The notes under the pieces are model-generated. The model saw only the letters and a program-made list of their open reading frames with translations. It was not told the DNA's origin and did not search any database. Source: Dermacentor variabilis (lineage: Eukaryota; Arthropoda; Arachnida; Ixodida; Ixodidae). Taken from it: a DNA stretch of 64,000 nt. The position numbers and the translations under genes were made by a program. The stretch's first letter is position 1; every line of letters begins with the position of its first letter. The stretch lies in NCBI RefSeq assembly GCF_050947875.1, contig NC_134571.1:227302024-227366023 (forward strand). Direction: 5' to 3'. Below are positions 4,824 through 64,000 of this stretch, piece after piece.

Positions 4824-4885
4824 AACCTTGAACTCATAGAGGCCGTCTGGTGTGATGAAGGCGGTCTTTTCGCGATCCCTTTCGT

Positions 4886-6220: not shown

Positions 6221-6221
6221 G

Positions 6222-7600: not shown

Positions 7601-7609
7601 GGACGAAAA

Positions 7610-7621
7610 GCACCTCCACCA
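7610..7621 (-). promoter_or_regulatory. Gypsy-1 primer-binding site (candidate)
   Basis: Minus-strand TGGTGGAGGTGC lies two bases after the inferred LTR end (CA at 7,624-7,625) and begins TGG, the complement of a tRNA CCA end. Gypsy-3 has nearly the same site (TGGTGGACGTGC). The tRNA was not identified. Confidence 0.55.
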
Positions 7622-7623
7622 GA

Positions 7624-8035
7624 TGTCCCGTGGTCGTGACGTCAAAGAACAGAGTAGCAATACTGTGAAAAGCAAAACTAATTTTTATTGGGCGAACCTG
7701 TGCCCACAAAACAGGCTACACTTAAAGCACAACGAGAGCGGCGAACACAGTCGGCGATCGTCGAAAATCTGATCAGCGGGTCAAGCGCGTCCGCTTTTAT
7801 ACAGCAGTCGTCGAATGTTCCAGACTAATCGTTCGGACCCGCGTGCCTTCCACAATGTTCTACACCATTCGCGTCACGCGATGAAATCAGATAACACAAC
7901 GTTCGGCGACAACAGACAGCCGGATAGAAGCATCGATAATGTTCCAGAAACTTCGGATACATGCAGGCGCGTCCCGCGCTGTGCGATTACATTTGTTAGG
8001 CGGCGAAACGTGGTCGCCCGATAAATATAAGTACA
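7624..8035 (-). repeat. Gypsy-1 5' LTR (outer boundary approximate)
   Basis: On the minus strand there is a TATAAAAG box at about 7,803-7,796, then a region with GGGCACAGGTTCGCCC and an AATAAAA polyadenylation signal near 7,690. The Gypsy-2 3' LTR has the same GGGCAC-TTCGCCC-AATAAA arrangement. The inner end is ...GGGACA. The outer end could lie anywhere between about 7,990 and 8,040, since no second LTR is available for alignment. Confidence 0.65.
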
Positions 8036-19955: not shown

Positions 19956-21473
19956 TCAGGATCGAGTTACCTCGTAATTTAAGGGACTTAGCAGGCGAAG
20001 TACTCTGTAGGGGCCAAAGTAACGGCGCAGTAGCTTCTCTGAAAGACCGGGCGTACGTATAGGCGTCCATACCCACACTTTGTCTCCGGGTTTGTACTGT
20101 ACCTCTCTTCGCCCTAGGTTGTACCGGTTGGCGTCGACGTTTTGCTGTTGTACGATACGGTGTCTTGCCAACTGCCGTGCTTCTTCTGCCCTTTTTATGT
20201 ACTCACTAACGTCAGGGTCGTCTTCGGTGCTGTTGTCTACAGGTAACATCGCGTCTAGTGTCGTTGTTACTGTCCGACCGTAAACAAGTTCAAATGGCGT
20301 GAAATGTGTCGTCTCTTGTACTGCAGTATTATACGCAAAGGTAGCATATGGTAGAATACTGTCCCATGTCCGATGCTCGATGTCCACGTACATTGAGATC
20401 ATGTCAGCGAGCGTTCTACTGAGCCGTTCAGTCAGGCCGTTGGTTTGCGGATGGTACGCTGTGGTTTTTCTATGAGCAGTATGTGTTAGTTTCATAACAG
20501 ACTGCATCAAACGGGCAACAAAAGCTGTTCCTTTGTCTGTTATGAGTACGTTAGGTGCGCCATGTCGTAACACTATGTGTGTGACAAAAAACTGAGCCAC
20601 TTCAATGGCGGTTCCTTTTGTAAGAGAAGATGTCTCAGCATACCGAGTCAGATAATCGGTTGCTACCACAATCCACCGCTTTCCTGAGGTTGATACGGGA
20701 AATGGTCCAAGTAAATCCACTCCTATTTGTTCAAAGGGTGCTGCTGGTGGCTGTATCGGTTGCAGAAAACCTGCTGGTTTGAGTGGCGGTGTTTTGCGTC
20801 TTTGACAATCTCGGCATGATTTTACATAGTGCTGCACTGAATTCATCAACTTCGGCCAGTAATATTTCTGGCGGATCCTCGCCAGAGTCCTACTAACGCC
20901 TAAGTGGCCAGCTGCAGGATCATCATGGCAAGCTTCTAAGATCTCAGCTCGCAGCGATGATGGTACGAGAAGTAGAAACGTCTCACCAGTGTGCTCGAAG
21001 TTTCGTTTGTAGAGGACGTTGTTCCGGATGACATACGAACACAATCCGCGGACGAAAACTCGAGGCACTTTCACTTGTCGACCCTCCAGGTACTCGATGA
21101 GCAGGAGTAATTCCGGATCTGTACGCTGGTGATGAGCCATTTCCGTCGTATTTACAGCCCCAAGAAATGGGAAATCTTGGTCGTATTCAGGTGACGTAGA
21201 TTCGATTGGTGCACGTGATAAGCAATCAGCATCATTGTGTTTGAGACCGGACTTGTAAACGACCGTGATGTCATACTCCTGTAGACGCAAACTCCATCTA
21301 GCGAGTCTTCCAGAAGGGTCCTTGAGGTTCGCCAGCCAGCACAATGAATGATGGTCGCTAATGGCTCGAAACGGTCTGCCATATAAGTATGACCGGAACT
21401 TACTGATGGCCCATATAACCGCCAGACATTCCTTTTCTGTAGCTGAGTCATTTGTCTCGGCTTTTGATAAGGT
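19956..21473 (-). CDS. pol: Gypsy-2 RNase H (partial) and complete integrase
   Basis: About 506 codons without stop or frameshift. The N-terminal ~75 residues are the second half of RNase H ([38 protein letters not shown]). Integrase follows with HHCC zinc finger (HDDPAAGHLG ... CRDCQRRK), core aspartates in VDLLGPF and ITDKGTAF, and the glutamate in NGLTERLSR, then the GPY/F module (LLRRYFGPYRVL). All catalytic residues are present. The frame technically opens at 21,560, but the first ~29 residues come from flanking DNA. Integrase joins element cDNA to chromosomes; alone, with no gag or RT, this copy cannot move. Confidence 0.88.
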   Translation of the reverse strand, partial: TLSKAETNDSATEKECLAVIWAISKFRSYLYGRPFRAISDHHSLCWLANLKDPSGRLARWSLRLQEYDITVVYKSGLKHNDADCLSRAPIESTSPEYDQDFPFLGAVNTTEMAHHQRTDPELLLLIEYLEGRQVKVPRVFVRGLCSYVIRNNVLYKRNFEHTGETFLLLVPSSLRAEILEACHDDPAAGHLGVSRTLARIRQKYYWPKLMNSVQHYVKSCRDCQRRKTPPLKPAGFLQPIQPPAAPFEQIGVDLLGPFPVSTSGKRWIVVATDYLTRYAETSSLTKGTAIEVAQFFVTHIVLRHGAPNVLITDKGTAFVARLMQSVMKLTHTAHRKTTAYHPQTNGLTERLSRTLADMISMYVDIEHRTWDSILPYATFAYNTAVQETTHFTPFELVYGRTVTTTLDAMLPVDNSTEDDPDVSEYIKRAEEARQLARHRIVQQQNVDANRYNLGRREVQYKPGDKVWVWTPIRTPGLSEKLLRRYFGPYRVLRLLSPLNYEVTRS

Positions 21474-21596
21474 ACAGCGGCCGAAAAGATTCCCGCGCTT
21501 CTCCGCCTGCCATCCCTGGTTGCGCACGTTTTGTCTTTTTCTTTCTCCTCCTAGCTCCATACTGCGCTTACCTGGCCACGCTACTCGGCCTTGGGC

Positions 21597-47158: not shown

Positions 47159-48343
47159 ATGTCATCCGAAGGAGAGAGTTCAACCACGGCCCCATCGTCA
47201 CCACCGACAGTCATCCTGGCCTAGCCTTGCGACCCTGGCATGTTTTCCGGGATCGACAACATTGACGTCGATGACTGGTTGCAGAATTACGAACGGGTAA
47301 GCGCACACAACAGGTGGTACAACATGCTTATGCTCGCCAATATAATATTCTACCTTAAGAAAATGGCACGGGTCTGGTTCGAACCACACAATGAAGAGAT
47401 TACGAGTTGGGACCAGTGCAAGCAGAAGCTTAGAGATTTGTTCGGCAAGCCCATCGGCCGCCAACGTGCTGCGAAGAAGGACCTTGGGACCCGTGTACAG
47501 ACGTCCACTGAATCTTACGTGGCGTATATCCAGGACGTCCTCGCTCTTTGCCGCAAAGTAGATAACAATATGGCAGAGGCAGACAAGGTCAGCCACGTCT
47601 TAAAAGGCATCGCGGACGACGCGTTTAACCTGCTTGTTTATAAGAACATAACAACGGTCAATGAGATCATTAACGAATGTCGCCGCTTTGAAGACGCAAA
47701 GAGTCGCTGCATAGTTCAACAGTTTACGGGGCTACCCAATAACGCAGCTTCATCGACGTGCGAAGACATTTGTCCACCGCGTGAGCCCACCTCCTCCGAG
47801 AACGTCGTACGTATCGTTCGGCGAGAAATCGAAGCAGCGTCTCCTGCCACGCCTGTGACGCAGTGCTTTGACGATTCCAGGCCGCTTGTGTGACTCATTC
47901 AGTCGGTCATTTGCCAAGAACTTGCCAATGTAGGTCTTCTGTCCATCTGCTCCGCCAGCCGTACTGACTTTGCTTCGTCTGCTGCCTCTGCCCCTGTTCA
48001 CCGGAGCCAATGCGGTCCATATCCGGGCTATTGCAACTCGGCCGAATGGCGCACCCATGATGACAGACCCATCTGCTTTTACTGTGGACGTGTGGGCCAC
48101 ATCTCTCGCCACTGTCGAAGCTTCTGGCCAGCTCACTCTCGACCAAGCTTTCCCGCCTACCGCCGCTCCCCACTGAATCCCCGCCCGCCATCCTTCTCCA
48201 CCGAGGTTGAAGACGCACCTGACAACGCTCGAGCCACCGCGACCAGCCGATCACCACCACCCCATAGTCGCCGCTCCCGTTCGCCCCAGCTGCGTCGCTC
48301 TCCATCCCCAGCTTACCGTCGCCGCTCTCCGATGGGAAACTAA
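47159..48343 (+). pseudogene. gag: Gypsy-3 gag with two in-frame stops
   Basis: One reading frame from ATG 47,159 to TAA 48,341-48,343, broken by TAG at 47,222-47,224 and TGA at 47,891-47,893. The capsid-like region (47,240-47,700) has DWLQNYERVSAHNRW and KDLGTRVQTSTESYVAYIQDVLALCRK. The nucleocapsid part has one CCHC knuckle (CFYCGRVGHISRHC, ~48,078-48,119) followed by an Arg/Ser/Pro-rich tail. Confidence 0.87.
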
Positions 48344-48432
48344 CTGGGGCAGCTCCTGGAGGTGACGCTGCTCTAGAACACCGGCCTGAAATTCCTCTGC
48401 TGACCCTGCCTACTAATCGGAACCTTCTGGAC

Positions 48433-50420
48433 GTGGACGTGGATGGTTTGCCCGTTACAGCACTCATCGACACTGGAGCCCAAATTTCCATTATGAGTGC
48501 GGAGCTTCGAACGCGCTTGAAGAAAGTACTGACTCCTGCTCCGACTCGACTGCTCCAGGTCGCCGATGGTGGAACTCCAGTTGTGCTTGGAATGTGTACT
48601 GCTCGTGTCAGTGTCGCCGGTCGCCACATGTCCGTTTTGTTTAGTGTGCTCGAACATTGCCCTCACAATGTGATCCTCGGACTCGACTTTCTGGCCGCCC
48701 ATTCTGCTCTGATTGATTGTTCCGCCGGCGTTGTACAACTTGATCTACCCCTACCTGTTTCCATTGACCTTCCTGCTCAAGCTCCAACTCAGCTTTGTTC
48801 CGCGGATTTTATACGCCTGCCATCTCTTGCAGCAACCTGCATCCCTGTCTTAGCCTGCCCACCTGTACCTGACGGAGACTACGTCCTTCCTCCCGCGACT
48901 TCAGTCCTGCTTTCTCACAATGTCTCCTTCCCACACACCATCGTTTCTGTTGCGGACAATCAGACATGACTTCCAATCCTGAATTTCGGACAGTGCCCAC
49001 AAGTAGTTCCTCGAGGCATGTCTCTTGCCACGTTGCCACCAACACACGAGTGCCACATTTCCGCTCTATCTGTTGCGCCGTCTTCGACCAATGCTCATTC
49101 TCCGCCGTCTATGTCAGCCCTGACTGACGACTTTACAAAGATGATTGCACCGGACCTCTCGACCCAACAAGCCGCAGAGCTCCGTTGCCTCCTCGAGTCC
49201 TACTCCGACATTTTCGACCTGAACGATCGCCCTTTGTGTCAAACTACGGTCGTGAAGCATCATATAAATACCGGCGATGCAGCACCTGTTCGCCGACGCC
49301 CATACCGGGTGTCCCCTTCTGAGCAACACGTTATCCAGAGCGAGGTTGACAAGATGCTTGCCAAAGGGATTATTGAACACTCTTCCAGCCCATGGGCGTC
49401 CCCTGTTGTTCTTGTCAAAAAGAAGGATAACAGCTGGCGATTCTGCGCTGACTATCGTCATCTAAACACGATCACCAAGAAAGATGTATATCCACTTCCC
49501 CGCATTGACGATGCTCTGGATTGTCTCCACGGTGCCACTTATTTTTCATCTATAGACCTTTGCTCTGGATATTGGCAAATTGCCGTGGATGAAATGGACT
49601 GTGAAAAGACTGCATTTGTCACACCAGACGGCCTATATCAGTTCCAAGTAATGCCTTTTGGCTTGTGCAATGCCCCGGCGACCTTTGAACGGATGATGGA
49701 CATGCTCTTGCGTGGTTTGAAATGGTCCATCTGTTTGTGCTTCTTGGTTGATGTCATCGTATTCTCTTCAACATTTGTGACTCATCTTGATAGACTTTCA
49801 CCTGTTCTTTCTGTTTTTCGCACCGCTGGCTTGCAGCTCAACTCGTCCAAGTGCCACTTCGGTCATCGCCAAATAACTATGCTCGGACACCTCGTCGATT
49901 CATCAGGCATTCGCCCCGACCCCGCTAAAGTTAATGCTGTGCAGAATTTCCCCGTACCAACTTGTTCCAAAGATGTTCGCAGCTTTATTGGCCTTTGCTC
50001 GTACTTCCGCAGGTTAGTGGAAAATTTCGCCCATGTTGCCCGTCCCCTGACTGACCTCCTGAAGAAAGACATTCCTTTCTGTTGGGGCTCTGAACAAGCG
50101 TCTGCTTTCTCGCAGCTCATCACGCTGCTCACCACACCTCCTGTTCTCGCCCATTTTGACGCCTCCGCTCCGACAGAAATCCGCACTGACGCTAGTGGCT
50201 ACGGCATCGGCGCAGTTTTAGCTCAATGCCAATGTGGGCACGACCGCGTCATCGCCTACGCCAGCCGCCTCCTCTCTCCCGCAGAGCGCAATTAATCGAT
50301 TACTGAGCATGAGTGTCTCGCCCTCATTTGGGCGGTGGGCAAGTTCAGACCTTATATATATGGTCGGCCATTTACAGTTACAACCGACCACCACGCCCTT
50401 TTGTTGGCTTTCCTCGCTTA
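48433..50420 (+). pseudogene. pol: Gypsy-3 protease, reverse transcriptase and start of RNase H
   Basis: The protease has DTGAQ near 48,470 and ILGLDFL near 48,675. TGA at 48,967-48,969 lies between protease and RT in the same frame. RT (49,018-50,060) shows [32 protein letters not shown] and MPFGLCNAPATF; the catalytic box, YLDD in relatives, reads FLVD (~49,745), losing one aspartate. RNase H starts with TEIRTDASGYGIGAVL (~50,180), then TAA at 50,293-50,295 and a frameshift near 50,400. Confidence 0.88.
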
Positions 50421-51820
50421 AAGATCCCACCGGACGCCTCGGTCGCTGGGCCCTACGGCTGCAAGAATACACATACACTGTGGTCTACAAGTCGGGTCGT
50501 CTACATCAGGACGCCGACTGCCTGTCTCGTCATCCCGTCGATGTACCGGATGGCTTAGTGGATGTCGCACCGATCTGCGTTCTTTCGCTCTCTGCCTTGC
50601 AAGACATTGGCGCTGAACGATGACGCGATGAGTCGTTACGCCCCATTATCGAACGCCTGCTCTCTGATCCGTCTGACCCATCCCTTCACATGTTTGTGCT
50701 ACAAAATGGCATCCTGTATCGCCGCAACATGCACCCCGACGGGCTTGAGCTCCTGACCGTCATTCCGTCTCATCTGCGACAGACTGTACTGCAGCAACTG
50801 CACGGCTGCACCGCTGGACACCTTGGCGTTACGCGGACCCATGACCGAATTTAACGACGGTTTTTCTGGCCCGTTCGGCGCTATGTTGCCGCGTGTGAGT
50901 CGTGTCAACGCCGGAAAAGACCAGCTGTGCCTCCTGCCGGACTGCTGCAGCCTTTGGATATACCGGCCGGCCCTTTTTCTCGCGTTGGCGTTGATCTTCT
51001 CGGACCATTCCCTATGTCGAATGACGGAAATAGGTGGATTGCCGTCGCTACGGACTATACAACTCGCTATACCATTACTAGAGCCCTACCGACCAGCTGC
51101 GCTAGACGTAGCTGATTTCTTGCTTCAGGACGTTATCTTGCACCACGGTGCACCTCGTCAACTTCTCACCGATCGCGGCAGATACTTTCTTTCCAAAGTC
51201 ATAGACGACCTACTTCGATCATGTGCTACTAAACACAAACTTACTACCGCTTACCATCCTCAAACTAACGGTCTTACCGAACGCCTGACATGCTCGCAAT
51301 GTATGTTTCCTCCGATCATCGCGACTGGGACATTGCTCTACCATTTGTCATGTTCGCCTACAATTCCTCGCGCCACGGCACAGCTGGCTATTCCCCCTTC
51401 TATCTCCTCTTCGGCCGTGAGCCAACTTTGCCTTTCGAGACACTCCTCTCGACCACGCTCGACTCGCCGACAGAGTACACTCGGGATGTCATAACCACAG
51501 CGACCGAAGCACACCAGATTGCCCGCATTCGTCTTTCTGCTTCACAGACACGCGAGAAGTGCCATTACGACCAGCGCCATCACGACGTGCATTATGAACC
51601 AGGTGCTCTTGTGCTAGTCTGGTATCCAACTCGGTGTGTTGGTCTTTCGGAGAAATTCCTCTCGCGATACTATGGCCCTTACTGCATCCTTCGCCAGGTG
51701 ACCCCTGTCACATATGAAGTGTCTCCGCTGGATGCCACGGTGCCTTCACCTCTCTCTGAAATCATCCACGTCAGCCGTCTCAAACATTACCTTTCTCGGA
51801 CAGATGAGCCGCACCAATAA
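50400..51820 (+). pseudogene. pol: Gypsy-3 end of RNase H and integrase (frameshifted)
   Basis: The frame at 50,400-50,623 gives the end of RNase H ([29 protein letters not shown]). Integrase follows with an HHCC finger (HGCTAGHLG ... CESCQRRK, ~50,800-50,920), VDLLGPFPMS (~50,985), LTDRGRYF (~51,165) and NGLTERL (~51,270), so all DDE residues are present though split by frameshifts near 51,095 and 51,285. The C-terminal frame 51,290-51,820 carries the GPY/F module (LSRYYGPYCILR) and ends 24 bases before the 3' LTR. Confidence 0.87.
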
Positions 51821-51832
51821 GGTGCTTTTTCC

Positions 51833-51843
51833 GACGGGGGTGA
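51833..51843 (+). promoter_or_regulatory. Gypsy-3 polypurine tract
   Basis: GACGGGGGTGA immediately before the 3' LTR; the plus-strand DNA primer in reverse transcription. Confidence 0.7.
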
Positions 51844-51996
51844 TGTCACAGTCGGTAATGTGTGAAGAAGAGGACTATGATGGTGGCCTGAGAGACGACG
51901 AGGAAGAGGGTAGTTTTTTATCGCTGCTCTACGCTTGTTCGCCCAGCCATTAAAAGCCATCTGTAAATAGGCGCACGCTTCTTCCTTTCCGTAACA
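51844..51996 (+). repeat. Gypsy-3 3' LTR
   Basis: 153 bp, TGTCACAG to CCGTAACA, followed by the ATAT duplication at 51,997-52,000. Confidence 0.93.
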
Positions 51997-52000
51997 ATAT

Positions 52001-52315
52001 GTTTGTCGACCTCTTATCCTATTAACCTTGTTCCAGACTTTGGCCTCATCTGCATACGAGTTGATGCCAGATAAAAACTTCTGCCAACTCTCTCTTCTGG
52101 CCTGTTGGCGTAGCAACCCCCACGCTTTGTTCTGTTTCCTACGAGCAATTCTACATTCCTCATTCCACCACAGGACACGCCATTTGCATGCCAAGCAATT
52201 TACTTCCGATGTGCATTTAGATGCGGCATCTATTATGAAGGCTGTAAAATACTCCACAGCAGCATCAATTTCTAATGAGAACATGTCATCCCATGAGATA
52301 ATAGTGAGAGTTCAA
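52001..52315 (-). pseudogene. LINE-3 ORF2, endonuclease-RT linker between the two large insertions
   Basis: Minus-strand reading from about 52,310 to 52,001 has the WWNEECRIARRKQNKAWGLL stretch usual between endonuclease and RT, then a piece that joins in frame to 46,932 once Gypsy-3 and one ATAT are removed. At the other end it joins LINE-3 sequence at 57,402 once LINE-4 and one AATTT are removed; a TGA sits right after that join. Confidence 0.83.
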
Positions 52316-52319
52316 AATT

Positions 52320-52320
<1 letters not shown>
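52316..52320. repeat. LINE-4 target site duplication AATTT (left)
   Basis: AATTT here and at 57,397-57,401 flank LINE-4. Part of the left copy could be read as element tail, so the length is 5 or slightly more. Confidence 0.7.

Positions 52321-52350
<30 letters not shown>
52321..52350 (-). repeat. LINE-4 3' tail, (TAAA)n type
   Basis: About seven TAAA-type units on the minus strand at the very 3' end, adjoining the target duplication. Confidence 0.85.
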
Positions 52351-52603
52351 TAGATACTGCGATCTGAAATCAGATCATAGCAGGGTGGGTATACATAGAA
52401 ATATACAAGCATGTAAACACATACAAATCCATCACATATGCAGGCATTTTCAGACATTGGTGAAGAATACATAACATACAAGAAAAAAACATACAAGCAG
52501 ATAAAGCACACGAATTCATAACATTTGCAAGCATTTTTCAAACATTGATAAGGAATTCTGGGTAACAATATGAGAATTAAGATTATTCCAGTCTGTTATT
52601 GTC

Positions 52604-54275
52604 CTAGGAAAAAAAAGAATATTTGAAACAGTTATTCCGTGCGTTGATGGGGGTTATCGATAAAGCATGCCTTCGTCTCGTGTTATAACCTGATGGGTAA
52701 GTAAAGAACTTGGAAGTGTTAACCTTATAATGGCTGTTTACAAGTTGAAAGAGGAACTTTAATCGACAGATACGGTTGCGCACAGTCACCGGGGGTAATC
52801 CACTGCGCCTTATGAGCTCACCAACAGACGCGCGGCCGTATGAACTAAAAACAAACCTAACTACCTTATACTGTACACATTCCAGTCTTTTAATATTGGT
52901 TAAAGTGAATGGGTCCCAAATAATTACGGCATATTCCAACAACGGACGAATGTAGGAATTGTACGCCAGTAAACGAACATCAGACGTAGATGATTTCAGT
53001 GAGCGCCTCAAGAAAAACAGTTTACGCAAAGAATTCGCAACAACAGTATCTATGTGCTTCGTCCAGGAAAGCTCATTGGTTATCCATAGGCCCAAATATT
53101 TGTACTCTCTTATCTCTGATAGAGATACATTATCAACATTATATGCAAATTGAACAGGTTCTTTCTTATGTGTGATTCTCATAAAAACAGTTTTTTCAAA
53201 ATTAATAGACATTTGCCATTGTTCGCACCAAGCAGCGACTTTTGCCAGGTCATTATTTAGACGCACCTGATCATCAACAGAAGATATCTTTTCATACAAA
53301 ATACAGTCATCTGCGTAAAGTTTCACGGAAACTGAAAGTTCTGCGACTATGTCATTTATAAATAATAGAAATAAAAGTGGTCCCAAAACTGACCCCTGGG
53401 GGACTCCAGACGCAACCTCTGTATTGTTAGAAGTATTGTTTAAGGTGACAAATTGGTGTCTGTTAGTAAGATAGGCTCTGTTCCATGTAAGTATCTGTTC
53501 ATTTTTTATATAATACCCTAATTTATGGATTAATTTGTTCTGTGATACCTTGTCAAATGCTTTACGAAAATCCATGAACACAATATCTGTTTGCTTCCCT
53601 TCATTAATTGCCTGTGCGAGATCATGAACAGTCTCAACTAATTGAGTACATGTAGAAAACCTATGCCTGAAACCATGTTGGACATCTGTAAGTACCTTGT
53701 GCTCTTCTAAGAAACTTAATATATGTTTATGAATTATATGCTCTAAAATTTTGCATGATGTAGATGTAAGAGATACAGGTCGGTAATTGTCTGTGTGTGT
53801 TTTTTTCCCGGATTGATGTAAAGGTTTGATTTCGGCCATCCTCCAGTCATCCGGTAGGGAACCATCGCATAAAGATCTGATGAATACGACATACAGGTAC
53901 TTAGCACACCATTCCGCATAACGCTTTAAAAACGCGTTTGGTATTTTATCTGGTCCTGGTGACTTTTTAGTATCAACGTTCAATAGCAAATTAAAAACGC
54001 CACTCTCAGAAATGACGTCAGATATAACAGGAAGCGATATAGAAAAGTTGGGAAGGCAACCATTATCTTTGGTAAATACCGACTGGAAGATTTTGTTAAA
54101 AGCAGAACAAACGACAGTCTCATCACTTACACATTTGCAGTCTATCATGAACCCACTGGTAGAAGAAGATTTAGGTGTGATTTGGCGCCATAATCTCTCG
54201 GGAGACGTTTTAATAAACGAAGGCAGGATCGTTACGTAATATTTTTCTTTGTCGCAAATTATTTCTGTTTTAGTT
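52604..54275 (-). pseudogene. LINE-4 ORF2 reverse transcriptase
   Basis: Nearly intact RT of 514+ codons. Motifs in order are KKSPGPDKIPNAFLK, WRMAEIKPLHQSGKK, NYRPVSLTSTSCKILE, HGFRHRFSTCTQLVE, FMDFRKAFDKV, GVPQGSVLGPLLFLLFIND, KLYADDCILYE (both catalytic aspartates present), INFEKTVFM, YKYLGLWI and the thumb (YIRPLLEYAVIIWDP). It synthesises element cDNA at nicked target DNA. The open frame starts at 54,148 by first Met but homology continues to about 54,275, where a one-base shift separates it from the endonuclease frame. A T-run slip near 52,605-52,615 removes the last ~40 residues from frame. No RNase H domain follows. Confidence 0.9.
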
Positions 54276-55278
54276 GTTCTGAAGTGCCTTCTACAATAGA
54301 TTTTAAGGTTACATTTGTTCTTGCTTTAACTTTTAACCTTTTAAGCCTTCGCTGTAAGCGTAACGTCTCGCGAGAAAGCCATGGGTTACGGTGCACAGAA
54401 GATTTTGCAATTGTGGGAACGAATCGTTGGATGCATTCAGAGACAATTCCCCTAAAAGAAAGCCACAAGTCATTTACATTGCAAGTGCTGTTTCTAAAGT
54501 CATCAAAGTAAAATGCAAGCATATCCAGAATAGATTCATCATCAGCACGAGAAAAATTGGGAAACAAATGAACATCGTTTTTGCGATCAGGGTAGACATT
54601 TGACAAGCTCAACAAGACAGCTTCGTGATCAGAAATCTCGTTTGTGACTTCACAAGTTGTCGCATTTCGGATGGCGCCACTTACAAAAAATAAGTCCAGA
54701 ATTGAGCCTACGGCTCCCTGTACTCTCGTGAAATTATTTACCATTTGCAGTAAGTCAAACGTGAATACAATATCAAAGATTGTGTTATCAATACTGTGAG
54801 CAGAATGCAATGAAAAGGTGTGCCAATCAATGTTTGGTAAATTAAAGTCCCCTGCCAGTAGTATTCTGTCATCTGATTTTACATGGCAGTGCATATATTC
54901 CCTTAAGTTTTCAAGTACCGCAGCAGAAGAGTTTGGAGGCATATAAAAAACACCAAGGATGAAGCGGACCTTGTTGATGTATGCTTTGCAAAAGACAGCT
55001 TCAATATCTTGCGCATCGGGCATACTAAAAAGTTGCATTGATGATTTGTACAAAATGGCCACTCCTCCACCTCTTCTGTCGCGGTCACCCCGAAATACCT
55101 TATAGCCCTTAGGAACAAACTCACTGTCAAATATTTCACTGCTCAACCACGTCTCTGTAAGCATGGCAACGTCTGCATCATGCGAGAACAGCATGCCCTC
55201 AAGTTCTGCAGCTTTATTGACGACGCTACGACAGTTTATGTTTAAGATTTTGAATGCAGGGCTGGTCTCTTTGTGGTG
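54259..55278 (-). CDS. LINE-4 ORF2 endonuclease domain
   Basis: APE-type endonuclease nicks target DNA for target-primed reverse transcription. The frame is open from the TGA at 55,279 to 54,259. Motifs are ILNINCRSVVNKAAEL (start of the domain, upstream of the first Met at 55,194), LTETWLSS (catalytic Glu), LLAGDFNLPNIDW and EISDHEAVLLSL (catalytic Asp/His). Because the first catalytic Asn lies before Met 55,194, translation from that Met would give an incomplete domain. The frame is the same as that of ORF1, one TGA upstream. A one-base frameshift near 54,270 separates it from RT. Confidence 0.85.
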   Translation of the reverse strand, partial: HHKETSPAFKILNINCRSVVNKAAELEGMLFSHDADVAMLTETWLSSEIFDSEFVPKGYKVFRGDRDRRGGGVAILYKSSMQLFSMPDAQDIEAVFCKAYINKVRFILGVFYMPPNSSAAVLENLREYMHCHVKSDDRILLAGDFNLPNIDWHTFSLHSAHSIDNTIFDIVFTFDLLQMVNNFTRVQGAVGSILDLFFVSGAIRNATTCEVTNEISDHEAVLLSLSNVYPDRKNDVHLFPNFSRADDESILDMLAFYFDDFRNSTCNVNDLWLSFRGIVSECIQRFVPTIAKSSVHRNPWLSRETLRLQRRLKRLKVKARTNVTLKSIVEGTSEQLKQK

Positions 55279-56166
55279 TCATTTATGGTTCTTTGGGATT
55301 TTATACCGTTTGTTTTTTGCATTATCCCATCCAAACATATCACCGTTAATGCTTAACTTATCAAAAACCAGCTTAATGTTAGCACCATTAACCTTTTCCT
55401 GTGATGCGCTTTCCCATAATTTCCTTCTTACATCATGAATTCTTTTCGAGTAGTCCTCGCTGATTGAATATTCTGAACCTTTCAATTTCGGGCATGCCTT
55501 CATTATTAAAGTCTTCTCTCGGTAGTCACGTAGATTTATGATGACAGGACGATTCCTGTTTGATTTCCTACCTATTCGATGGCATCTTTGCATGCTCTTT
55601 ATCGTAACTCCAAGTTTTTCGCTAAGAATGTCCTTTGTTATTTTGTCCATAAGTTCCGTTTCTGTTTCCCTTTCCTCTTCTTTTATGCCGTAAATAAGTA
55701 AGTTATTCCTACGGCTTCTATTTTCCAAGTCGTCAGTTTTAGTTAACAGGTGTGATACAGTGGCTTCCAGTTTATTAATAGTTGACCTCACATGGTCTAC
55801 TTCTGCTTTTACGGTCTTGATAGTTGCCACCTCGTCTTCCAAATTTTTGATTCTCTCGGTCAAACCATCTATTTTTTTCTCAAAAGAGCCCTGTTTTGCA
55901 AGAATGTCACTGACAGATGATTTCAGGGAACTTTGACCTAATAGAATCTGCTGGAGCATTTCCCTTTCAGTCGTGTCTGGGCCTGGGTTTGATTCAATAT
56001 CACCCCATTTTAAAAGATCGTCTTGGGAAGAAAAAAGGTATGCACAAACACTCTTTATACGTAGTGGGCTGGGCAGCAGCAACAAAAAGCGGTTGTCGCT
56101 ACGATAGCAGTAGGCCGATAAGTAGTTACTAACCTGCGCAGTGAAGCAAAATGGGTTCTTGAGCAT
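55279..56166 (-). CDS. LINE-4 ORF1: 2A motif, coiled coil and RNA-binding protein (295 aa)
   Basis: I start ORF1 at ATG 56,164-56,166, 30 nt after the predicted transcription start of the last monomer. The same frame is open upstream through all monomers (to 57,408), so N-terminally extended forms are possible. Residues ~25-45 are hydrophobic (FLLLLPSPLRIKSVCAYLF). Residues 55-63 are GDIESNPGP, a full 2A consensus (DxExNPGP) preceded by DDLLKW. After it come a predicted coiled coil (~75-150), RSRRNNLLIYGI and GRKSNRNRPVIINLRDY, typical of the RRM/C-terminal part of LINE ORF1 RNA-binding proteins. If 2A acts, translation gives a 62-residue leader and a 233-residue ORF1 protein starting with Pro. 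No stop or frameshift. Ends TGA, followed in frame by the endonuclease. Confidence 0.87.
   Translation of the reverse strand: MLKNPFCFTAQVSNYLSAYCYRSDNRFLLLLPSPLRIKSVCAYLFSSQDDLLKWGDIESNPGPDTTEREMLQQILLGQSSLKSSVSDILAKQGSFEKKIDGLTERIKNLEDEVATIKTVKAEVDHVRSTINKLEATVSHLLTKTDDLENRSRRNNLLIYGIKEEERETETELMDKITKDILSEKLGVTIKSMQRCHRIGRKSNRNRPVIINLRDYREKTLIMKACPKLKGSEYSISEDYSKRIHDVRRKLWESASQEKVNGANIKLVFDKLSINGDMFGWDNAKNKRYKIPKNHK
55978..56004 (-). other. 2A-type ribosome-skipping motif GDIESNPGP
   Basis: Codons for G-D-I-E-S-N-P-G-P, ORF1 residues 55-63. It matches every fixed position of the 2A consensus D-x-E-x-N-P-G-P, with a Leu-Leu-Lys run three residues upstream as in many active 2A peptides. Skipping would occur between residues 62 and 63. 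2A motifs near the N terminus of non-LTR retrotransposon proteins are known from sea urchins and trypanosomes. Confidence 0.9.
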
Positions 56167-56195
56167 TGTGCCTGAGGTGCTGCTGCCAAGCCCAC

Positions 56196-56258
56196 TGGTT
56201 GCAACCGGCGATGGGAAGCTTCTTATATAGGGCATGGTGTCCCCGTGATGTGACGTCA
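56196..56258 (-). promoter_or_regulatory. Monomer promoter 4 (nearest ORF1): CRE, TATA, initiator
   Basis: Minus strand: TGACGTCA (56,258-56,251), TATATAAG (from 56,229), and CCAGTGG with A at 56,196, 33 nt after the TATA start. CAGT fits the arthropod initiator. ORF1 ATG follows after a 30-nt leader. Confidence 0.7.
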
Positions 56259-56495
56259 CCGTTGACAGCGCAGGCGCAGACACGTTGATGGAAGTCATGA
56301 TGAGGTCGTTGATCAAGCAAAAATCAGCTCGTGCTGGATGCTCGAAGCCAACGTCATTTGCTTGGTAAGAGGGAGATCGGGCGAATCCTTCACCAAGATA
56401 AAGCGGTTGTGCGGGCAGCAAGAGGGTCAAAACCTGCGTAATGAAGCAAAATTGGTTCTTGAGCATTGTGCCTGAGGTGCTGCTGCCAAGCCCAC

Positions 56496-56558
56496 TGGTT
56501 GCAACCGGCGATGGGAAGCTTCTTATATAGGGCATGGTGTCCCCGTGATGTGACGTCA
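56496..56558 (-). promoter_or_regulatory. Monomer promoter 3: CRE, TATA, initiator
   Basis: Same arrangement as in 56,196-56,258, displaced by 300 nt. TGACGTCA and TATATAAG are unchanged. Confidence 0.68.
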
Positions 56559-56795
56559 CCGTTGACAGCGCAGGTGCAGACACGTTGATGGAAGTCATGA
56601 TGAAGTCGATGATTAAGCAAAAATCAGCTCGTGCTGGATGCTCGAAGCCAACATCATTTGCTTGGTAAGAGGGAGATCGGGCGAATCCTTCACCGAGATA
56701 AAGCGGTTGTGCGGGCAGCAAGAGGGTCAAAACCTGCGTAATGAAGCAAAATTGGTTCTTGAGCATTGTGCCTGAGGTGCTGCTGCCAAGCCCAC

Positions 56796-56858
56796 TGGTT
56801 GCAACCGGCGATGGGAAGCTTCTTATATAGGGCATGGTGTCCCCGTGATGTGACGTCA
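56796..56858 (-). promoter_or_regulatory. Monomer promoter 2: CRE, TATA, initiator
   Basis: Same arrangement, 600 nt from the ORF1-proximal unit. TGACGTCA and TATATAAG are unchanged. Confidence 0.68.
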
Positions 56859-57095
56859 CCGTTGACAGCGCAGGTGCAGACACGTTGATGGAAGTCATGA
56901 TGAGGTCGTTGATCAAGCAAAAATCAGCTCGTGCTGGATGCTCGAAGCCAACGTCATTTGCTTGGTAAGAGGGAGATCGGGCGAATCCTTCACCGAGATA
57001 AAGCGGTTGTGCGGGCAGCAAGAGGGTCAAAACCTGCGTAATGAAGCAAAATTGGTTCTTGAGCATTGTGCCTGAGGTGCTGCTGCCAAGCCCAC

Positions 57096-57158
57096 TGGTT
57101 GCAACCGGCGATGGGAAGCTTCTTATATAGGGCATGGTGTCCCCGTGATGTGATGTCA
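57096..57158 (-). promoter_or_regulatory. Monomer promoter 1 (5'-most): CRE mutated
   Basis: Same arrangement, but the CRE reads TGATGTCA on the plus strand (57,151-57,158), a one-base change. TATA and initiator are unchanged. Confidence 0.66.
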
Positions 57159-57396
57159 CCGTTGACAGCGCAGGCGCAGACACGTTGATGGAAGTCATGA
57201 TGAGGTCGCTGATTAAGCAAAAATCAGCTCGTGCTGGATGCTCGAAGCCAACGTCATTTGCTTGGTAAGAGGGAGATCGGGCGAATCCTTCACCGAGATA
57301 AAGCGGTTGTGCGGGCAGCAAGAGGGTCAAAACCTGCGTAATGAAGCAAAATGGGTTCTTGAGCATTGTGCCCGAGGTGCTGCTGCCAAGCCCACC

Positions 57397-57401
57397 AATT
57401 T
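57397..57401. repeat. LINE-4 target site duplication AATTT (right)
   Basis: Matches 52,316-52,320. LINE-3 endonuclease sequence resumes immediately after it. Confidence 0.75.
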
Positions 57402-58115
57402 CTCCCAATCAGCTGTACCAATCTTCCGCCTAGGAGCCTGTAATGGATATTCATTTTCTTTAAGTGTTCGTAGCAGTATGGGGAAGTGGTCGCTTCCTTA
57501 AGGATTGTTCATAACTTCCCATTCGAGTTCAGGAATTATAGACGGGGAAACTATGCTGAGATCAATTGAAGAAAAAGTTTTGCTTGCAAGACAGTAATAT
57601 GTGGGTTCCTTCTTATTCTACAGGCACGCACCAGAAGAAAAAAGGAATTGTTCAACAAGACGTCCTCGTGCATCTACACGAGGGTCGCCCCACAGGTAGC
57701 TGTGTGCATTGAAATCGCCAAGAACAACATAAGGTTCTGGCAATTCATCTATAAAGGACTGAAATTCATGTTTGTTTAATTTGTAATGTGGAGGTATGTA
57801 AAGCGAGCAAATAGTAATAAGTTTGTTTAGCAGAACAACTCGAACCGCCACTGCTTCAAGGGCCGTTCGTTGCTGTAAACATTGACATGCTGTGCTTTTT
57901 TGAATTACAATGGCAACACCGCCCGATGATGCTATCGCATCATCGCGATCTTTGTGAAAAGTAACATACTGTTGAAGAAAGTTTGTGTGTTTTGGTTTTA
58001 AGTGTGTTTCCTGTGAACACAGCACTTTTGAATTGTGTTTGTGGATGAGTTCTTGTACATCATCAAGGTTTCTAAGAAGACCTCTGCCGTTCCATTAAAT
58101 GATTTGTGCATCCAT
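57402..58115 (-). pseudogene. LINE-3 ORF2 endonuclease
   Basis: APE-type endonuclease from ATG 58,113-58,115. A TAA occurs at codon 7, then NGRGLLRNLDDVQELI, CSQETHLKP (catalytic Glu), VVLGDFNAHSYLWGDP, a TAG at about 57,618, then IDLSIVSPS and GSDHFPIL (catalytic Asp/His) near 57,490. It is cut at 57,401 by LINE-4; the linker continues at 52,315. Confidence 0.83.
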
Positions 58116-59125: not shown

Positions 59126-60307
59126 GTGCACGTACGTGCCAGCCGACTTCTCCAGGGACTCCAGCCACAGCACGGTCTGCTACCCGAACGAACTAGAATG
59201 ACGAACCAACCACCTCCTGCCACTCCTGCAGCATCGCACGTTGTCGTCAATCACATCCGCACGCCGAATCTGTTCCACGGAAGTGCTTCAGAGGACGCCG
59301 ACGACTGGCTTGACCATTTTGACCAGGTTGCCAACCTCAACGACTGGAACCACAAGCGTAAGCTACGCTACGTGTACTTCGCTCTTGAGGATTCCGCGAA
59401 AACATGGTTTGAGAACCACGAGGTGACACTGACGTCATGGGAAGAATTTCGTAGGCAGTTCCTCAATGTCTTCGCCAGTGCGGACAGGAAGGAGAGGGCG
59501 GAGTTAGCGTTGGAGGCAAGAATTCAAGGCCCGAATGAGCGAGTGATGGCGTACGTAGAAGACATGAATCGGCTTTTCAGACGTGCTGACCCTTCTATGA
59601 CTGAAACAAAGAAGGTGCGCCATCTCGTGCGCGGTGTCAAAGAGGAAATCTTTGCTAGCATTCGAAATCCGCCGATGACACTTGCAGAGTTCCATGACGA
59701 AGCCACTGCTATGGAAAAGGCCCTTCAACAGAGGGCCAGGCAAAACAACTGTGATGGCATGATTTCAAGGGAGCTCTCTGCCGTTACCCTTGGTAACGAC
59801 GTTGGCGCCTTGCGAGAACTCATCAGGGCTGTAGTCAAGGAGGAACTGCAGAGGATGCAGATGAGCACTGCCCCTGTGGGACAACTTTCCATTGTGAAAA
59901 TGGTGTGCGCCGAGGTCCGACAGGCCGTCCATATTCCTGGACAGTACAAGGCACCACAGCAGGGATCGCACGCCGAAATGAGTTACACTGAAGCAGTACG
60001 CTGTCCGCTACCCTCAAGTGCGTGTAGCATGGTACACCCCACTCAACAAATGGATGTAAGCTTCAGGCCGCCTCGCAGCCCACCGCACATCGCCGAAGCA
60101 AGGACTAGGAAGAGCGACGTCTGGCGCACCACAGACTACAAGCCCCTTTGGTTTCGTTGTGGCAAAGCCGGACACATCTACAGAATGTGTCCTTTTTGTC
60201 AAGTGGGGCTCCGTGGATTCTTGCCGAATGCACCTCGTCCACGACCTGGTGAGTGGCCGCCGGAAATAGAGAGTTTCGTCGCGAATCGTCGCAATGTTTA
60301 TCAGTGA
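59126..60307 (+). CDS. gag: Gypsy-4 gag (393 aa, zinc knuckle altered)
   Basis: Uninterrupted frame. The N-terminal ~35 residues resemble the Gypsy-1 gag leader; an internal ATG at 59,198 (MTNQPPPATPAAS) is an alternative start. The capsid-like part contains LFHGSASEDADDWLDHFDQ, YVYFALEDSAKTWFENHE, PNERVMAYVEDMNRLFRRADP and VRGVKEEIFASIRNPP, matching Gypsy-1 gag over its whole length. The zinc knuckle near residue 346 reads WFRCGKAGHIYRMC: the first Cys of CCHC is Trp, so zinc binding is probably lost. Gag forms the particle that holds element RNA. Confidence 0.9.
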   Translation: MHVRASRLLQGLQPQHGLLPERTRMTNQPPPATPAASHVVVNHIRTPNLFHGSASEDADDWLDHFDQVANLNDWNHKRKLRYVYFALEDSAKTWFENHEVTLTSWEEFRRQFLNVFASADRKERAELALEARIQGPNERVMAYVEDMNRLFRRADPSMTETKKVRHLVRGVKEEIFASIRNPPMTLAEFHDEATAMEKALQQRARQNNCDGMISRELSAVTLGNDVGALRELIRAVVKEELQRMQMSTAPVGQLSIVKMVCAEVRQAVHIPGQYKAPQQGSHAEMSYTEAVRCPLPSSACSMVHPTQQMDVSFRPPRSPPHIAEARTRKSDVWRTTDYKPLWFRCGKAGHIYRMCPFCQVGLRGFLPNAPRPRPGEWPPEIESFVANRRNVYQ

Positions 60308-60465
60308 TGGCAGGAGCCCCATTCGTTGTCTCCTGCTCGTTACAGGTCACCATCACCAAGCCAAGCCCTTACTAGCGGCGCTCTGAGACGCCGCTCGCCT
60401 AGCCCGGCGGGTCGGGAAAACTGAGTTCAGCGACCTCCAGAGGTGAGGCCGCTGACGACGACCGT

Positions 60466-61299
60466 ATGCAAGATCCTCCACTACGACGACAACGACGAAA
60501 ACAGAACGATGCAGACGTACAGACAGAGTCAAACACGTTACGAGAGGTAGTAACGTCGAACATTCCTGTCACCATAGACAACGAAGAAATAACGGCGTTA
60601 ATCGACACTGGAGCGGACACCTCAGTTATGAGCATGGACCTTGCCTGCAAGCTGAAGAAAGTTTCTACCGAGTGGACTGGGTCACAGATTCGCAATGCAG
60701 GAGGCCATCTGCTAACCCCGGTAGGAAGATGCACAGCGCAAGTGAGCATTCGTGGGTTTACGTACCTCGGAGATTTCGTTATCCTCCCAAGCTGTTCGAG
60801 GGACCTAATTCTGGGAATGGACTTTCTGCAGGCTAATGGAGCTGTGATTAACTTACAAAAGTCACGGGTAACGTTTTCGACGGCGCAGGCCTTAGCAGGG
60901 AGCAGCACTGATGACACGTATGTCAACGCCTTGAGGATTGTTGACAAGAATATCACGGTGCCGCCAAGGAGCAGCATAGTGACCCTCGTCACCTGCGACG
61001 CGTTCGACGGCAATGAGGGTATTGCCGAGGCAAATACCCCGCTGCTGCTAGAAAGATACATCTGCATCACCCAGGGGCTTGTTCGAAAACAGCATAAGTG
61101 CTCGCAAGTTTTGTTGACAAATTTCAGCCATGAGTATCAGCACGTCCCTCAAGGTACAGCTGTGGCATTCCTGAACGACATTGCTGACTTTTCCGACATC
61201 GGCACGTTACAAGTGACTTCACCGGATGCAACAACTCACGCCAGCCTGAATACCGGTGTCCACATTAATGCTGACTTAGCAGATGTACAGAAGGATTAG
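60466..61299 (+). CDS. pol: Gypsy-4 protease region (277 aa)
   Basis: Retropepsin with active-site DTGAD at residues 47-51 and ILGMDFLQANGAVINL near residues 119-134, the second conserved strand. The C-terminal half links to RT. The frame differs from gag, as in Gypsy-1. It ends at TAG 61,297-61,299, after which the same frame continues with LLGLLTELSGCFSTEYK into RT, so the TAG is a lesion. Confidence 0.85.
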   Translation: MQDPPLRRQRRKQNDADVQTESNTLREVVTSNIPVTIDNEEITALIDTGADTSVMSMDLACKLKKVSTEWTGSQIRNAGGHLLTPVGRCTAQVSIRGFTYLGDFVILPSCSRDLILGMDFLQANGAVINLQKSRVTFSTAQALAGSSTDDTYVNALRIVDKNITVPPRSSIVTLVTCDAFDGNEGIAEANTPLLLERYICITQGLVRKQHKCSQVLLTNFSHEYQHVPQGTAVAFLNDIADFSDIGTLQVTSPDATTHASLNTGVHINADLADVQKD

Positions 61300-62184
61300 C
61301 TGCTTGGCCTACTGACAGAACTCTCTGGCTGTTTTTCCACAGAATACAAAGTCCAGTGCACTTCCGTTACGCAACACCGGATTGTTACAGAAAAGTTGGT
61401 GCGGCCTGTTCGTCAGCATCCGTATCGCATGTTACCTATGGAGCGGGAGGCGATTAAGTGTCAAGTTCAAGAAATGCTAAATGATGACGTCATCCAGCTG
61501 TCGACAAGTCTGTGGGCATCGCCTGTCGTACTAGTAAAAAAGAAAGACAACACACTCCACTTCTGTGTTGACTACAGACGGCTTAACCGAGTCACCAAAC
61601 GCAATATTTATCCCCTGCCACGGATCGATGACGCTTTCGACTGTCTGCGTCATGCTCAGTTCTTTACTTCGTTAGACCTAAAGTCTGGCTACTGGCAAAT
61701 CGAAGTGGACGAGCGTGACCGTGAAAAAACCGCCTTCGTGACTCCTGATGGGCTGTACGAATTTAAAGTGCTGCCTTTCGGTCTCTGTTTCGCTCCTGCT
61801 ACGTTCCAACGAATGATGGACACTGTACTCATTGGACTAAAGTGGCAGACGTGTCTACTGTACCTAGACAACATTGTTGTGTTTTCCAGCACGTTCGATG
61901 AACATCTCGCCCGGCTACAAAGCATCCTTACCGCAATACGCAAGGCCAACCTCACCATCAAGCCTGAAAAATGTTGCTTTGGCTTCCAGGAACTCAAGTT
62001 TCTAGGCTACTTGGTCAGCTCCCAAGGAGTACGACCAGACCCAGAAAAACTCGCTGCTGTTGCCGAGTTTCCTCGTCCTAAAGATAAAAAGGCTGTTCAG
62101 CGGTTCCTGGGCCTCTGTGCTTACTACCGTCGTTTCGTTGAAGGCTTCTCAAGGATTGCCAAACCGCTTACGAGACTGACGTGA
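61300..62184 (+). pseudogene. pol: Gypsy-4 reverse transcriptase
   Basis: Motifs are [44 protein letters not shown] and LPFGLCFAPATF. The catalytic box reads YLDN instead of YLDD (~61,860), which should inactivate polymerisation. The connection continues to [12 protein letters not shown] and a TGA at 62,182-62,184 caused by a frameshift. Confidence 0.88.
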
Positions 62185-63070
62185 CTGATGTGCCCTTTGC
62201 GTGGACGGAAGACCAAGAGCAGGCCTTCACCGAATTGCGTAAACGCCTTCAATCCGCTCCAGTGCTGGCACATTTTGATGACACCGCGGCAACTGAAATA
62301 CACACCGACGCCAGCAACGTAGGACTCGGGGCCATTCTGGTTCAATAGCAAGATGGTGCAGAAGGTGTAATTGCGTATGCGAGTCGTAGTCTGACAAAAG
62401 CAGAAGCTAATTATTCAACGACCGAAAAAGAATGCTTGGCAGTCGTGTGGGCCATCAGCAAGTTCTGACCCTACTTATACGGCCAGCCATTTCGAGCGAT
62501 CAGCGATCACCACTCGCTCTGCTGGCTTGCCAATCTACGAGACCCATCAGGTCGCCTCGCTCGTTGGAGCCTCCGCCTCCAGGAATACGTAACTGGAGGC
62601 GGACATAACTGTTGTCTACAGATCCGGCCATAACCATAGCGACGCTGATTGCTTGTCACATTCTCCTATTCCCTTGACATCCTCCGACTTGGAGCTAGAT
62701 ATGCCATTTCTTGGTGTCGTCGACGTGGTGCGCATGGCTGACTATCAACGTGCAGACTCTGAGCTGCTTCCAGTCATCCGATATCTCAAGGGAGCTGACG
62801 TTGTTGTCCCACGCCCACTTTCACGAGGATTGATGTCGTACTGCCTGCGAAACGATGTCCTGTACAAGAAAAATTTCGAGAACAGCCAGGAAACGTTCCT
62901 TCTCGTCGTTCCGACGGCACTGCGTGAGGAAGTTTTACAGGCGAGTCACGACGATCCCTGTCGATACATTAGGCTTCGCGAGGACATTAGCGCGCATACG
63001 GCAAAAATACTACTGTCCACACCTATTTTCGTCGGTTCAGCGCTATGTGCGAAGTCACGTGTGTGACAGT
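62185..63070 (+). pseudogene. pol: Gypsy-4 RNase H and integrase N-terminal region
   Basis: RNase H reads [16 protein letters not shown] (catalytic Asp present), then TAG at about 62,346, [17 protein letters not shown] at about 62,467, and [16 protein letters not shown]. Duplicated/shifted sequence follows near 62,600. The piece 62,653-63,066 has VVPRPLSRGL and YKKNFENSQETFLLVVP, leading to the HHCC finger, which is disrupted by a frameshift near 62,960. Confidence 0.8.
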
Positions 63071-64000
63071 CACGTGCTGTGACTGTCAGAGGTGTAAAGT
63101 TCCACCCGTCAAGCCTGCCGGCCTCCTTCAGCCTTTGGATCCGCCTCCGGCGCCGTTCCAGCAAGTGGGAATGGACCTTCTTGGGCCATTCCCCATGTCA
63201 TCCTTGCAAAATAAGTGGATAATCATGGCAACTGACTATTTAACTCGCTATGCGGAGACGAAAGCTGTGCCACGGGGAACTGTTGCTGAAGTCACCAGCT
63301 TCTTCGTCCACAACATCGTGCTTCACCACGGTGCACTCGCTGTACTCATTACTGACCGTGGTGCAGTTTACAGCGGAGTTATTGCAACAAGTCGTCACAC
63401 TGACGCACACCGACCACCGACAGACCACAGCCTATCATCCCCAAACTAACAGCTTAACAGAGCGCCTAAACAGAACATTAGCCGACACGCTCTCCATGTA
63501 CATTGATGTGGAACACAAAACATGGGATGAAATTTTGCCATACGTCACGTTTGCTTACAATATCGCTGTGCAGGAGACCACCGAGTTTACACCATTCGAG
63601 CTTGTTTATGGACGTCGCATTACAACCCCCTTAGACGCCATGCTCCCGGTAGACCACGGAACCACAAGGAATGACACCACTGAAGATTTCGTCGAGAAAG
63701 CCGAGGAAGCTCGCCAGCTTGCTCAGAATTGCATCCGCACCCAGCAGAATACCGGTGCCTACCGTTACAACCGGACCCGACGGAATGTCCAGTACTTACC
63801 AGGCAACTGTGTGTGGGTGTGGACACCTATCCGACACCATGGGCTCTCAGAGAAATTGTTGCGCCACTATTTCGGCCCCTATGAAGTTGTATGCTGCCTC
63901 AGTGATGTGAACTACGAGGTGGTGCCTCAAAGCTCTGATCCTGATTCGAACCGACGCCGTCCCCGTGCTGAAGTCGTCCACGTAGTACGGATGAAGCCAT
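63045..64000 (+). pseudogene. pol: Gypsy-4 integrase core and C-terminal part (runs off window)
   Basis: CCDCQRCKVPPVKPAG is the end of the zinc finger. MDLLGPFPMS (~63,175) and LITDRGAVYS (~63,350) carry the two aspartates. A frameshift near 63,370 moves to a frame with SLTERLNRTLADTLSMYID (Glu, ~63,455), FTPFELVYGRR and the GPY/F module (LLRHYFGPYEVV). The window ends before the stop codon. Confidence 0.85.

Follow-up and report, generated by a model that had tools for sequence, protein, structure and literature searches.

The stretch of DNA analysed in this study (the window) comprises 64,000 nucleotides (nt) of the genome of the tick Dermacentor variabilis (contig NC_134571.1, positions 227,302,024 to 227,366,023) and carries, on its minus strand, a non-long-terminal-repeat (non-LTR) retrotransposon of the long interspersed nuclear element (LINE) kind. 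Its first open reading frame (ORF1) runs from the nearest ATG through 295 amino acids (aa) to a UGA codon (55279..56166, minus strand) and encodes a 62-aa leader, a 2A (StopGo) motif, a coiled coil, an RRM domain and a C-terminal domain (CTD) of the L1 ORF1p type. The 5' part of the element is made up of four complete tandem monomers of 300 nt (57333-57034, 57033-56734, 56733-56434 and 56433-56134, minus strand), each ending with ATG...CAG, and a partial 5' monomer of 62 nt (57334..57395, minus strand). The monomers are 97-98% alike, and each closes with the ATG of ORF1 and the ten codons after it, the last being CAG, after which the ORF1-specific part begins with GTTAGT. From 57395, the 5' end of the element, the frame stays open as far as the stop of ORF1, and the first upstream stop is a TGA at 57411, in the flank and outside the element; counted from a TTG in the flank, the whole open frame encodes 709 aa (55279..57408, minus strand). 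Promoter-like tandem units that lie upstream of ORF1 and in its frame are new relative to the preliminary description of this DNA.

The peptide GDIESNPGP is encoded at 56004..55978 (minus strand) and forms residues 55-63 of the 295-aa ORF1, as numbered from the ATG at 56166. Its position in an uninterrupted frame, as given in the preliminary description, was confirmed by minus-strand translation, and it is the sole NPGP across the six frames of the 64-kilobase window. The core octapeptide DIESNPGP (55978..56001, minus strand), recognised by translation and family conservation, retains the invariant 2A positions that had been claimed for it and agrees with the definition of a 2A/StopGo core, (D/G/C/N)(V/I)ExNPGP, in section 10 of PMC12846837. 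Ribosome skipping is predicted at the Gly62-Pro63 bond. The wider 2A region (LLKWGDIESNPGP, 55978..56016, minus strand) contains Leu51 and Gly55, which are conserved in the family, and an unusual W54. According to the same section of PMC12846837, the L-rich StopGo context ends with (A/S/C)G before the D at p12, and most changes at the characteristic upstream residues led to a near-complete loss of activity. The upstream context of the window copy reads LLKWG and departs from the (A/S/C)G ending by a W at p10, which is shared by one further homologue (P0102). Because of this W and the activity losses described for such mutants in that section, skipping is less certain in the window copy than in the family. 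The W two residues before the core was absent from the preliminary description, as was the open frame upstream of the ATG.

Conservation was assessed with two monomer-free queries, namely, the 295-aa ORF1 of the window (125 matches, 120 listed) and a profile built from 27 short-form matches (450 matches, 120 listed, of which 91 were new). All counts refer to the listed matches, which together give 211 ORF1 homologues; the named ones are tick proteins, the sole exception being a fish protein (P0119). The canonical core [DGNC][VI]ExNPGP was found in 161 of the 211 homologues and a core with one change in another six (P0083, P0290, P0292, P0307, P0309, and P0312), so the motif is not a chance occurrence. 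The remaining 44 are all matches of the first query, i.e., 27 that begin at or after the motif site and 17 with a different N terminus there; the sequences of P0086 and P0089 begin inside the 2A motif. Relatives lacking the motif had been put forward beforehand as evidence against a 2A, and the 211 homologues do not speak against it, with some distant matches having another N terminus. A set of 136 non-redundant core-bearing rows (window included) was selected by the core, so that the flanks alone are informative. In these rows, L is found at -5 in 127/133, G at -1 in 135/136, and D in 134, and the residues E, N, P, G, and P of the core, as the selection criterion, are invariant. The residue at p10 is S (56 rows), C (41), A (20), G (14), or W (2); S, C, A, or G is present in 131/136 rows and S, C, or A in 117/136. 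The columns flanking the core mostly have an entropy of 2-4 bits, and the seven residues after the core at least 3 bits each. By its residues, the family 2A is of the L-rich StopGo class as outlined in section 10 of PMC12846837. These alignments give strong support to a 2A motif that is conserved at the ORF1 N terminus of this tick LINE, and a working 2A in the ORF1 family appears very likely.

The AlphaFold 2 model of the ORF1 protein (59 sequences) has a mean predicted local distance difference test (pLDDT) score of 84 and contains a helix at residues 65-151, followed by two mixed domains. The block means of the pLDDT are at least 91 for residues 71-290, and the leader is modelled with low confidence; a helix drawn at residues 35-53, directly before the 2A, has a pLDDT of only ~50. 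Ten matches with E <= 0.001 were obtained with Foldseek, all of which are human LINE-1 ORF1p (best 1.6e-08). As modelled, the fold of the ORF1 protein is that of L1 ORF1p, with the coiled coil followed by the RRM and CTD, and the 2A would therefore separate the leader just before the coiled coil. Searches of the ORF1 sequence gave weak coiled-coil-type matches only, below the cut-offs, in Pfam, and weak matches only, mostly to coiled coils, in the PDB. Several public ORF1 entries (P0006, P0019, P0025, P0031, P0266, and P0289) bear host-gene names, e.g., myosin light chain kinase or unc-13 homolog C-like, and were presumably misnamed via their coiled coil.

Each monomer contains promoter-like sites at a regular spacing. 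In the last monomer, an initiator-like CCAGTGG is located at 56192..56198 (minus strand) with its A+1 at 56196, and it also occurs in the other monomers from 56498, 56798, and 57098. A TATA-like TATATAAG at 56222..56229 (minus strand) is repeated from 56529, 56829, and 57129, and its TATAAG starts 31 nt upstream of A+1. A sequence resembling a cAMP response element (CRE/ATF-like; TGACGTCA, 56251..56258, minus strand) is present in three monomers (also at 56551 and 56851) and takes the form TGACATCA in one, at 57151. In an RNA begun at the initiator-like site, the first AUG would be the ORF1-type ATG of that monomer, 29 nt from the end and with A at -3. The element 5' end, in the partial monomer, is no more than one base away from the initiator-like site, and for that reason the window copy resembles an insertion made from an RNA begun at such a site with four more monomers downstream, the start site here being read from the 5' end of one insertion. 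Tandem units that contain the start site at the 5' end of the element correspond to a monomeric LINE promoter array, of which we infer promoter activity from the sequence. Since the ORF1 frame continues through the monomers, the leader should vary in length, being 62 aa or 62 aa plus multiples of 100 aa according to the start site used. The preliminary description had proposed a 62-residue leader with a hydrophobic stretch; hydrophobic stretches are indeed present, and the length is incomplete, as the frame runs on through the promoter-like monomers.

Similar units precede ORF1 in relatives. The monomer/ORF1 border of the window encodes QV, and relatives were aligned on this pair, which anchored 122 of the 162 core-bearing rows (window included; unanchored rows omitted). 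For the tandem-unit and family counts, D was accepted for the core E, which added P0309 and P0312 and gave 124 anchored rows. A first look at the matches of the first query had revealed tandem N-terminal units in 24 of the 120 listed, plus the window; in the anchored set, tandem in-frame units of 78-111 aa were found before ORF1 in 63/124 rows (window included). The identity between copies stops at the border Q or the next V in 61 of these 63 rows, which fall into 54 monomer families at <40% identity. In 68/102 non-redundant rows, the sequence upstream of the border was 50 aa or longer and so reached beyond the initiator. In a tree of 99 ORF1 bodies, the 68 with at least 60 aa upstream are scattered (29 changes vs 26.5 for shuffled labels), so that the extended form is not the property of a single clade. 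Between families, the monomer interiors have a mean identity of 0.22 vs 0.20 when shuffled, where ORF1 bodies are 30-50% identical, and this near-random identity rules out the monomer peptides as conserved proteins. The frame appears to be kept and the peptide not, as would be expected were the 2A to discard the leader.

The chance for a unit to be open and in frame was estimated from the window. Dinucleotide shuffles of one monomer were open in 7% of cases and sampled 100-codon window frames in 7.3%, one third of which (~2.4%) would be open and in frame, vs 63/124 observed (binomial; as the rows are related, the p-value should not be read literally). Judged from these proteins, the open frame at the level of the family does exceed chance. 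Of the seven differences between the window monomers, five are synonymous third-position changes (one-sided p = 0.045, a weak signal; three body-specific differences were set aside). Six extended matches (P0007, P0019, P0025, P0028, P0043, and P0084) are UniRef entries without a genomic contig, which we take to be transcriptome-derived. The promoter-like sites of the relatives were read via the protein as codon compatibilities, DNA having been seen for the window only. A TATA-codable pair (IK, LK, YK, IN, or IR) is situated exactly 10 codons before the initiator codon in 59/83 sequences and in at most 3 at any other offset. CRE-compatible [MVL]TS is present in 36/85 rows vs ~0.03 per 32 aa in ORF1 bodies, and residues compatible with the alternative stop-free phase are present in 2/85. 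The initiator pattern and the QV anchor were picked post hoc; the offset of -10, the identity of the residue that follows QV, and the outcome of the phase test were read off afterwards. In scans for DNA relatives, viral contigs gave no confirmed relative, and genome contigs gave one distant locus, L001, from a metagenome-assembled genome (MAG), at which no 5' monomer array was detected by the repeat finder. The 2A LINE ORF1 of L001 also starts with a hydrophobic stretch.

Taken together, the tandem promoters of this element are probably also coding, with the 2A releasing an L1-type ORF1p that is always the same from a leader whose length varies (probability about 0.6). The 5' end of the tick non-LTR retrotransposon would be an array of 300-base-pair monomers, each acting as an RNA polymerase II promoter (CRE, TATA box, initiator) with the first ORF1 ATG ~30 nt further on. 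Because the monomers have a whole-codon length and are free of stops, an RNA from any monomer would open the same frame, namely, n x 100 aa plus the 62-aa leader and then ORF1. At the end of the leader, the 2A would cause the ribosome to skip the Gly62-Pro63 bond, so that an identical ORF1 protein (coiled coil-RRM-CTD) would be released whichever monomer is used, and the leader, which often resembles a signal peptide, would be shed.

Several points weigh against this reading. The W at p10 is off-consensus, and the 2A of the window copy may be weak; the ORF2 of this copy is frameshifted. The openness of the window monomers alone is not remarkable. The tick relatives are all proteins, among which interrupted or out-of-frame monomers are invisible, and gene models favour long frames. 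The tree rows, i.e., the 118 anchored rows with a long-enough body thinned to 99 by taking the longest upstream part first, favour extended forms. Fewer than 50 aa lie upstream of the border in 34/102 non-redundant rows. Lastly, the 17 homologues with another N terminus, including the fish protein and the distant matches P0108-P0115 and P0120, may truly lack a 2A.

Three other explanations were weighed against translated promoters. A rather unlikely one is dual targeting, in which the skipped product would be cytosolic, the leader would direct the unskipped product to the secretory pathway, and the translated monomers would be incidental. It draws on the N termini of the upstream units, which by mean hydropathy in the 63 tandem-bearing rows consist of M, a few polar residues, hydrophobic residues from Q-5 to ~Q+10, and then mostly polar or small residues, and on a hydrophobic stretch within residues 1-30 of 27/36 NPGP-bearing vs 3/84 NPGP-less ORF2-type matches (120 listed). 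A 2A signal sequence has a precedent in the text available from PMC4981915. However, the likeness to signal peptides is one of hydropathy, and T/C-rich DNA also encodes hydrophobic residues; in section 10 of PMC12846837, four upstream contexts (one of them L-rich) gave skipping at ~93% or more, which would leave little unskipped product; and in-frame promoter units with unalignable interiors would be left unexplained. Dual targeting is compatible with translated promoters and may be additional to them.

It is improbable that gene models and a bias toward open frames have produced the in-frame extension artefactually, with mRNAs in fact starting at the last monomer and a leader that is always ~60 aa long. 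Database proteins do tend toward selection for long frames, a monomer with the nucleotide composition of those studied here is open in a given frame in 7% of cases, and short forms are common, as seen in the 34/102 rows above. Yet the queries were monomer-free and 63/124 anchored rows still had in-frame units against ~2.4% expected, several extended matches are UniRef entries without a genomic contig, and the window copy is itself an insertion with its 5' end four monomers upstream. Very improbable is a conserved but non-recoding NPGP that contributes to a structural boundary ahead of the coiled coil. The W at p10 in the window copy would fit it, and skipping is here a prediction from the sequence; on the other side, L at -5, G at -1, [VI] at +1, a variable +3, and then N-P-G-P reproduce the StopGo consensus of the consulted section of PMC12846837, and the next residues vary.

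The monomer/ORF1 border itself, CAG/GTTAGT (56128..56136, minus strand), encodes Q11 V12 S13 and is splice-donor-like. The residue after QV is S (53), G (30), R (28), C (10), or K (1), and it can be encoded by NGN in 121/122 anchored rows vs 16-52% at the next six positions, a generous count, as serine also has TCN codons. The constraint looks nucleotide-level because S, G, R, and C share little beyond the middle base of their codons. CAG/GTNNG matches the splice-donor consensus, and in 121/122 sequences the border is compatible with such a splice-donor-like signature. The residues before the border Q are mostly F, L, V, and I, compatible with a pyrimidine tract and equally with a hydrophobic peptide. 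At the inner borders between monomers, the residue after Q is V (32), I (13), L (6), F (4), A (3), M (3), or T (1), and GTNNG is usually absent. Transcripts of mouse LINE-1 begin within monomers, so that a unit should be lost at every round of copying. A speculative and quite doubtful idea is that the monomers are RNA-splicing units whose border resembles a recursive splice site, with back- or trans-splicing of LINE RNAs adding one promoter monomer per event, in which case the array would be a promoter renewed through RNA. If this were true, a splice-added monomer would offset the unit lost per copying round, and, being in frame and with its translated product later removed by the 2A, the extra unit would be tolerated. 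A search for an ORF2 message with M..NPF..Q spliced to the endonuclease found none among the 120 listed of 258 ORF2 matches, whose RNA origin was unsorted, so that little is excluded by this result.

ORF2 follows ORF1 in two parts. Its start encodes an apurinic/apyrimidinic (AP) endonuclease (54259..55278, minus strand; PF03372 2.6e-16, PF14529 4.2e-12) in the same frame as ORF1, directly past the UGA, and the remainder encodes a reverse transcriptase (52604..54238, minus strand; PF00078 6.8e-36) in a different frame. A frameshift is located between the two at ~54150-54350, as the 585-aa homologue P0121 is continuous across the border, with 97% and 95% identity to the two window parts. By these domains of ORF2, the element is a non-LTR retrotransposon of the AP endonuclease type. 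The CR1/L2-type label fits this combination and the (TAAA)n tail that, by its sequence, marks the element 3' end (52319..52351, minus strand); CR1, I, and L2 elements are described as recently active in Ixodes scapularis in the accessible part of PMC4748124. No ATG is present between the ORF1 stop (55279-55281) and the first endonuclease motif, the stop being UGA in the window and UAG in L001 (1381-1620), and ORF2 may need readthrough, reinitiation, or another start. Many tick-like ORF2 matches have an M near the endonuclease motif. NPGP occurs in the N-terminal part of 36 of the 120 listed ORF2-type matches (P0162-P0237; 18 of them canonical) and in none of the top group (P0121-P0161); named examples are from Amphiura, Pinctada, and Mercenaria. 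From these sequences, a hydrophobic leader followed by NPGP is seemingly a wider theme of these LINEs. A candidate target-site duplication (ATTG/ATTTTG) is short and not clear-cut. The element is seemingly nested in another LINE, as the joined flanks (51787-52284 and 57396-58025) give open frames across the site, and endonuclease-like ORFs were judged by eye to be present in both flanks. Ty3/gypsy-like pol and gag-like ORFs, also assigned by eye, occupy 2613-7675, 19956-21560, 47240-51820, and 59126-63449.

N-terminal 2A peptides of LINEs have been known for over a decade, and we know of no settled reason for them. The architecture proposed here offers one: a promoter that overlaps the coding frame would be free to vary in number and sequence, and the 2A would strip its peptide. 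It also bears on how monomeric LINEs keep promoter arrays despite the loss of one unit per copying, for which the CAG/GTNNG border is a lead, and such elements are abundant in tick sequence collections. Odon 2013 reportedly found a 2A octapeptide in a LINE ORF whose frame is continuous with the element proteins; the tick element differs by its L1-type ORF1 and by a leader that is continuous with in-frame tandem promoter-like monomers. A literature search, whose coverage did not extend to most subscription papers, returned no report of a 2A in tick elements or of in-frame translated promoter monomers. That 2A sequences occur in non-LTR retrotransposons, animal ones included, was already known, as the preliminary description had noted for sea urchin and trypanosome, and their occurrence in such elements is stated in the available portions of PMC11512398 and PMC4981915. 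The sea urchin NLR proteins resemble the tick ORF1 in a signal-like N-terminal leader that ends in a 2A, and differ in being products of cellular genes with a 26-aa 2A-like sequence, as far as the available portion of PMC4981915 describes them. L1Tc of Trypanosoma cruzi (Pr77 promoter/ribozyme, L1Tc2A) likewise has an internal 5' RNA polymerase II promoter, an RNA that is unspliced and translated, and, in its ORF, an active 2A; according to the accessible text of PMC4748587, its promoter lies in the first 77 nt, with transcripts from the first base and no TATA box, whereas the tick element has TATA- and initiator-like sites in repeated units. Mouse LINE-1 (Tf; see also PMC11602158) shares tandem promoter monomers upstream of ORF1. 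The mouse LINE-1 monomers are called a 5' untranslated region, whereas those of the tick element are stop-free and in frame with ORF1, end with its first codons, and are followed by a 2A.
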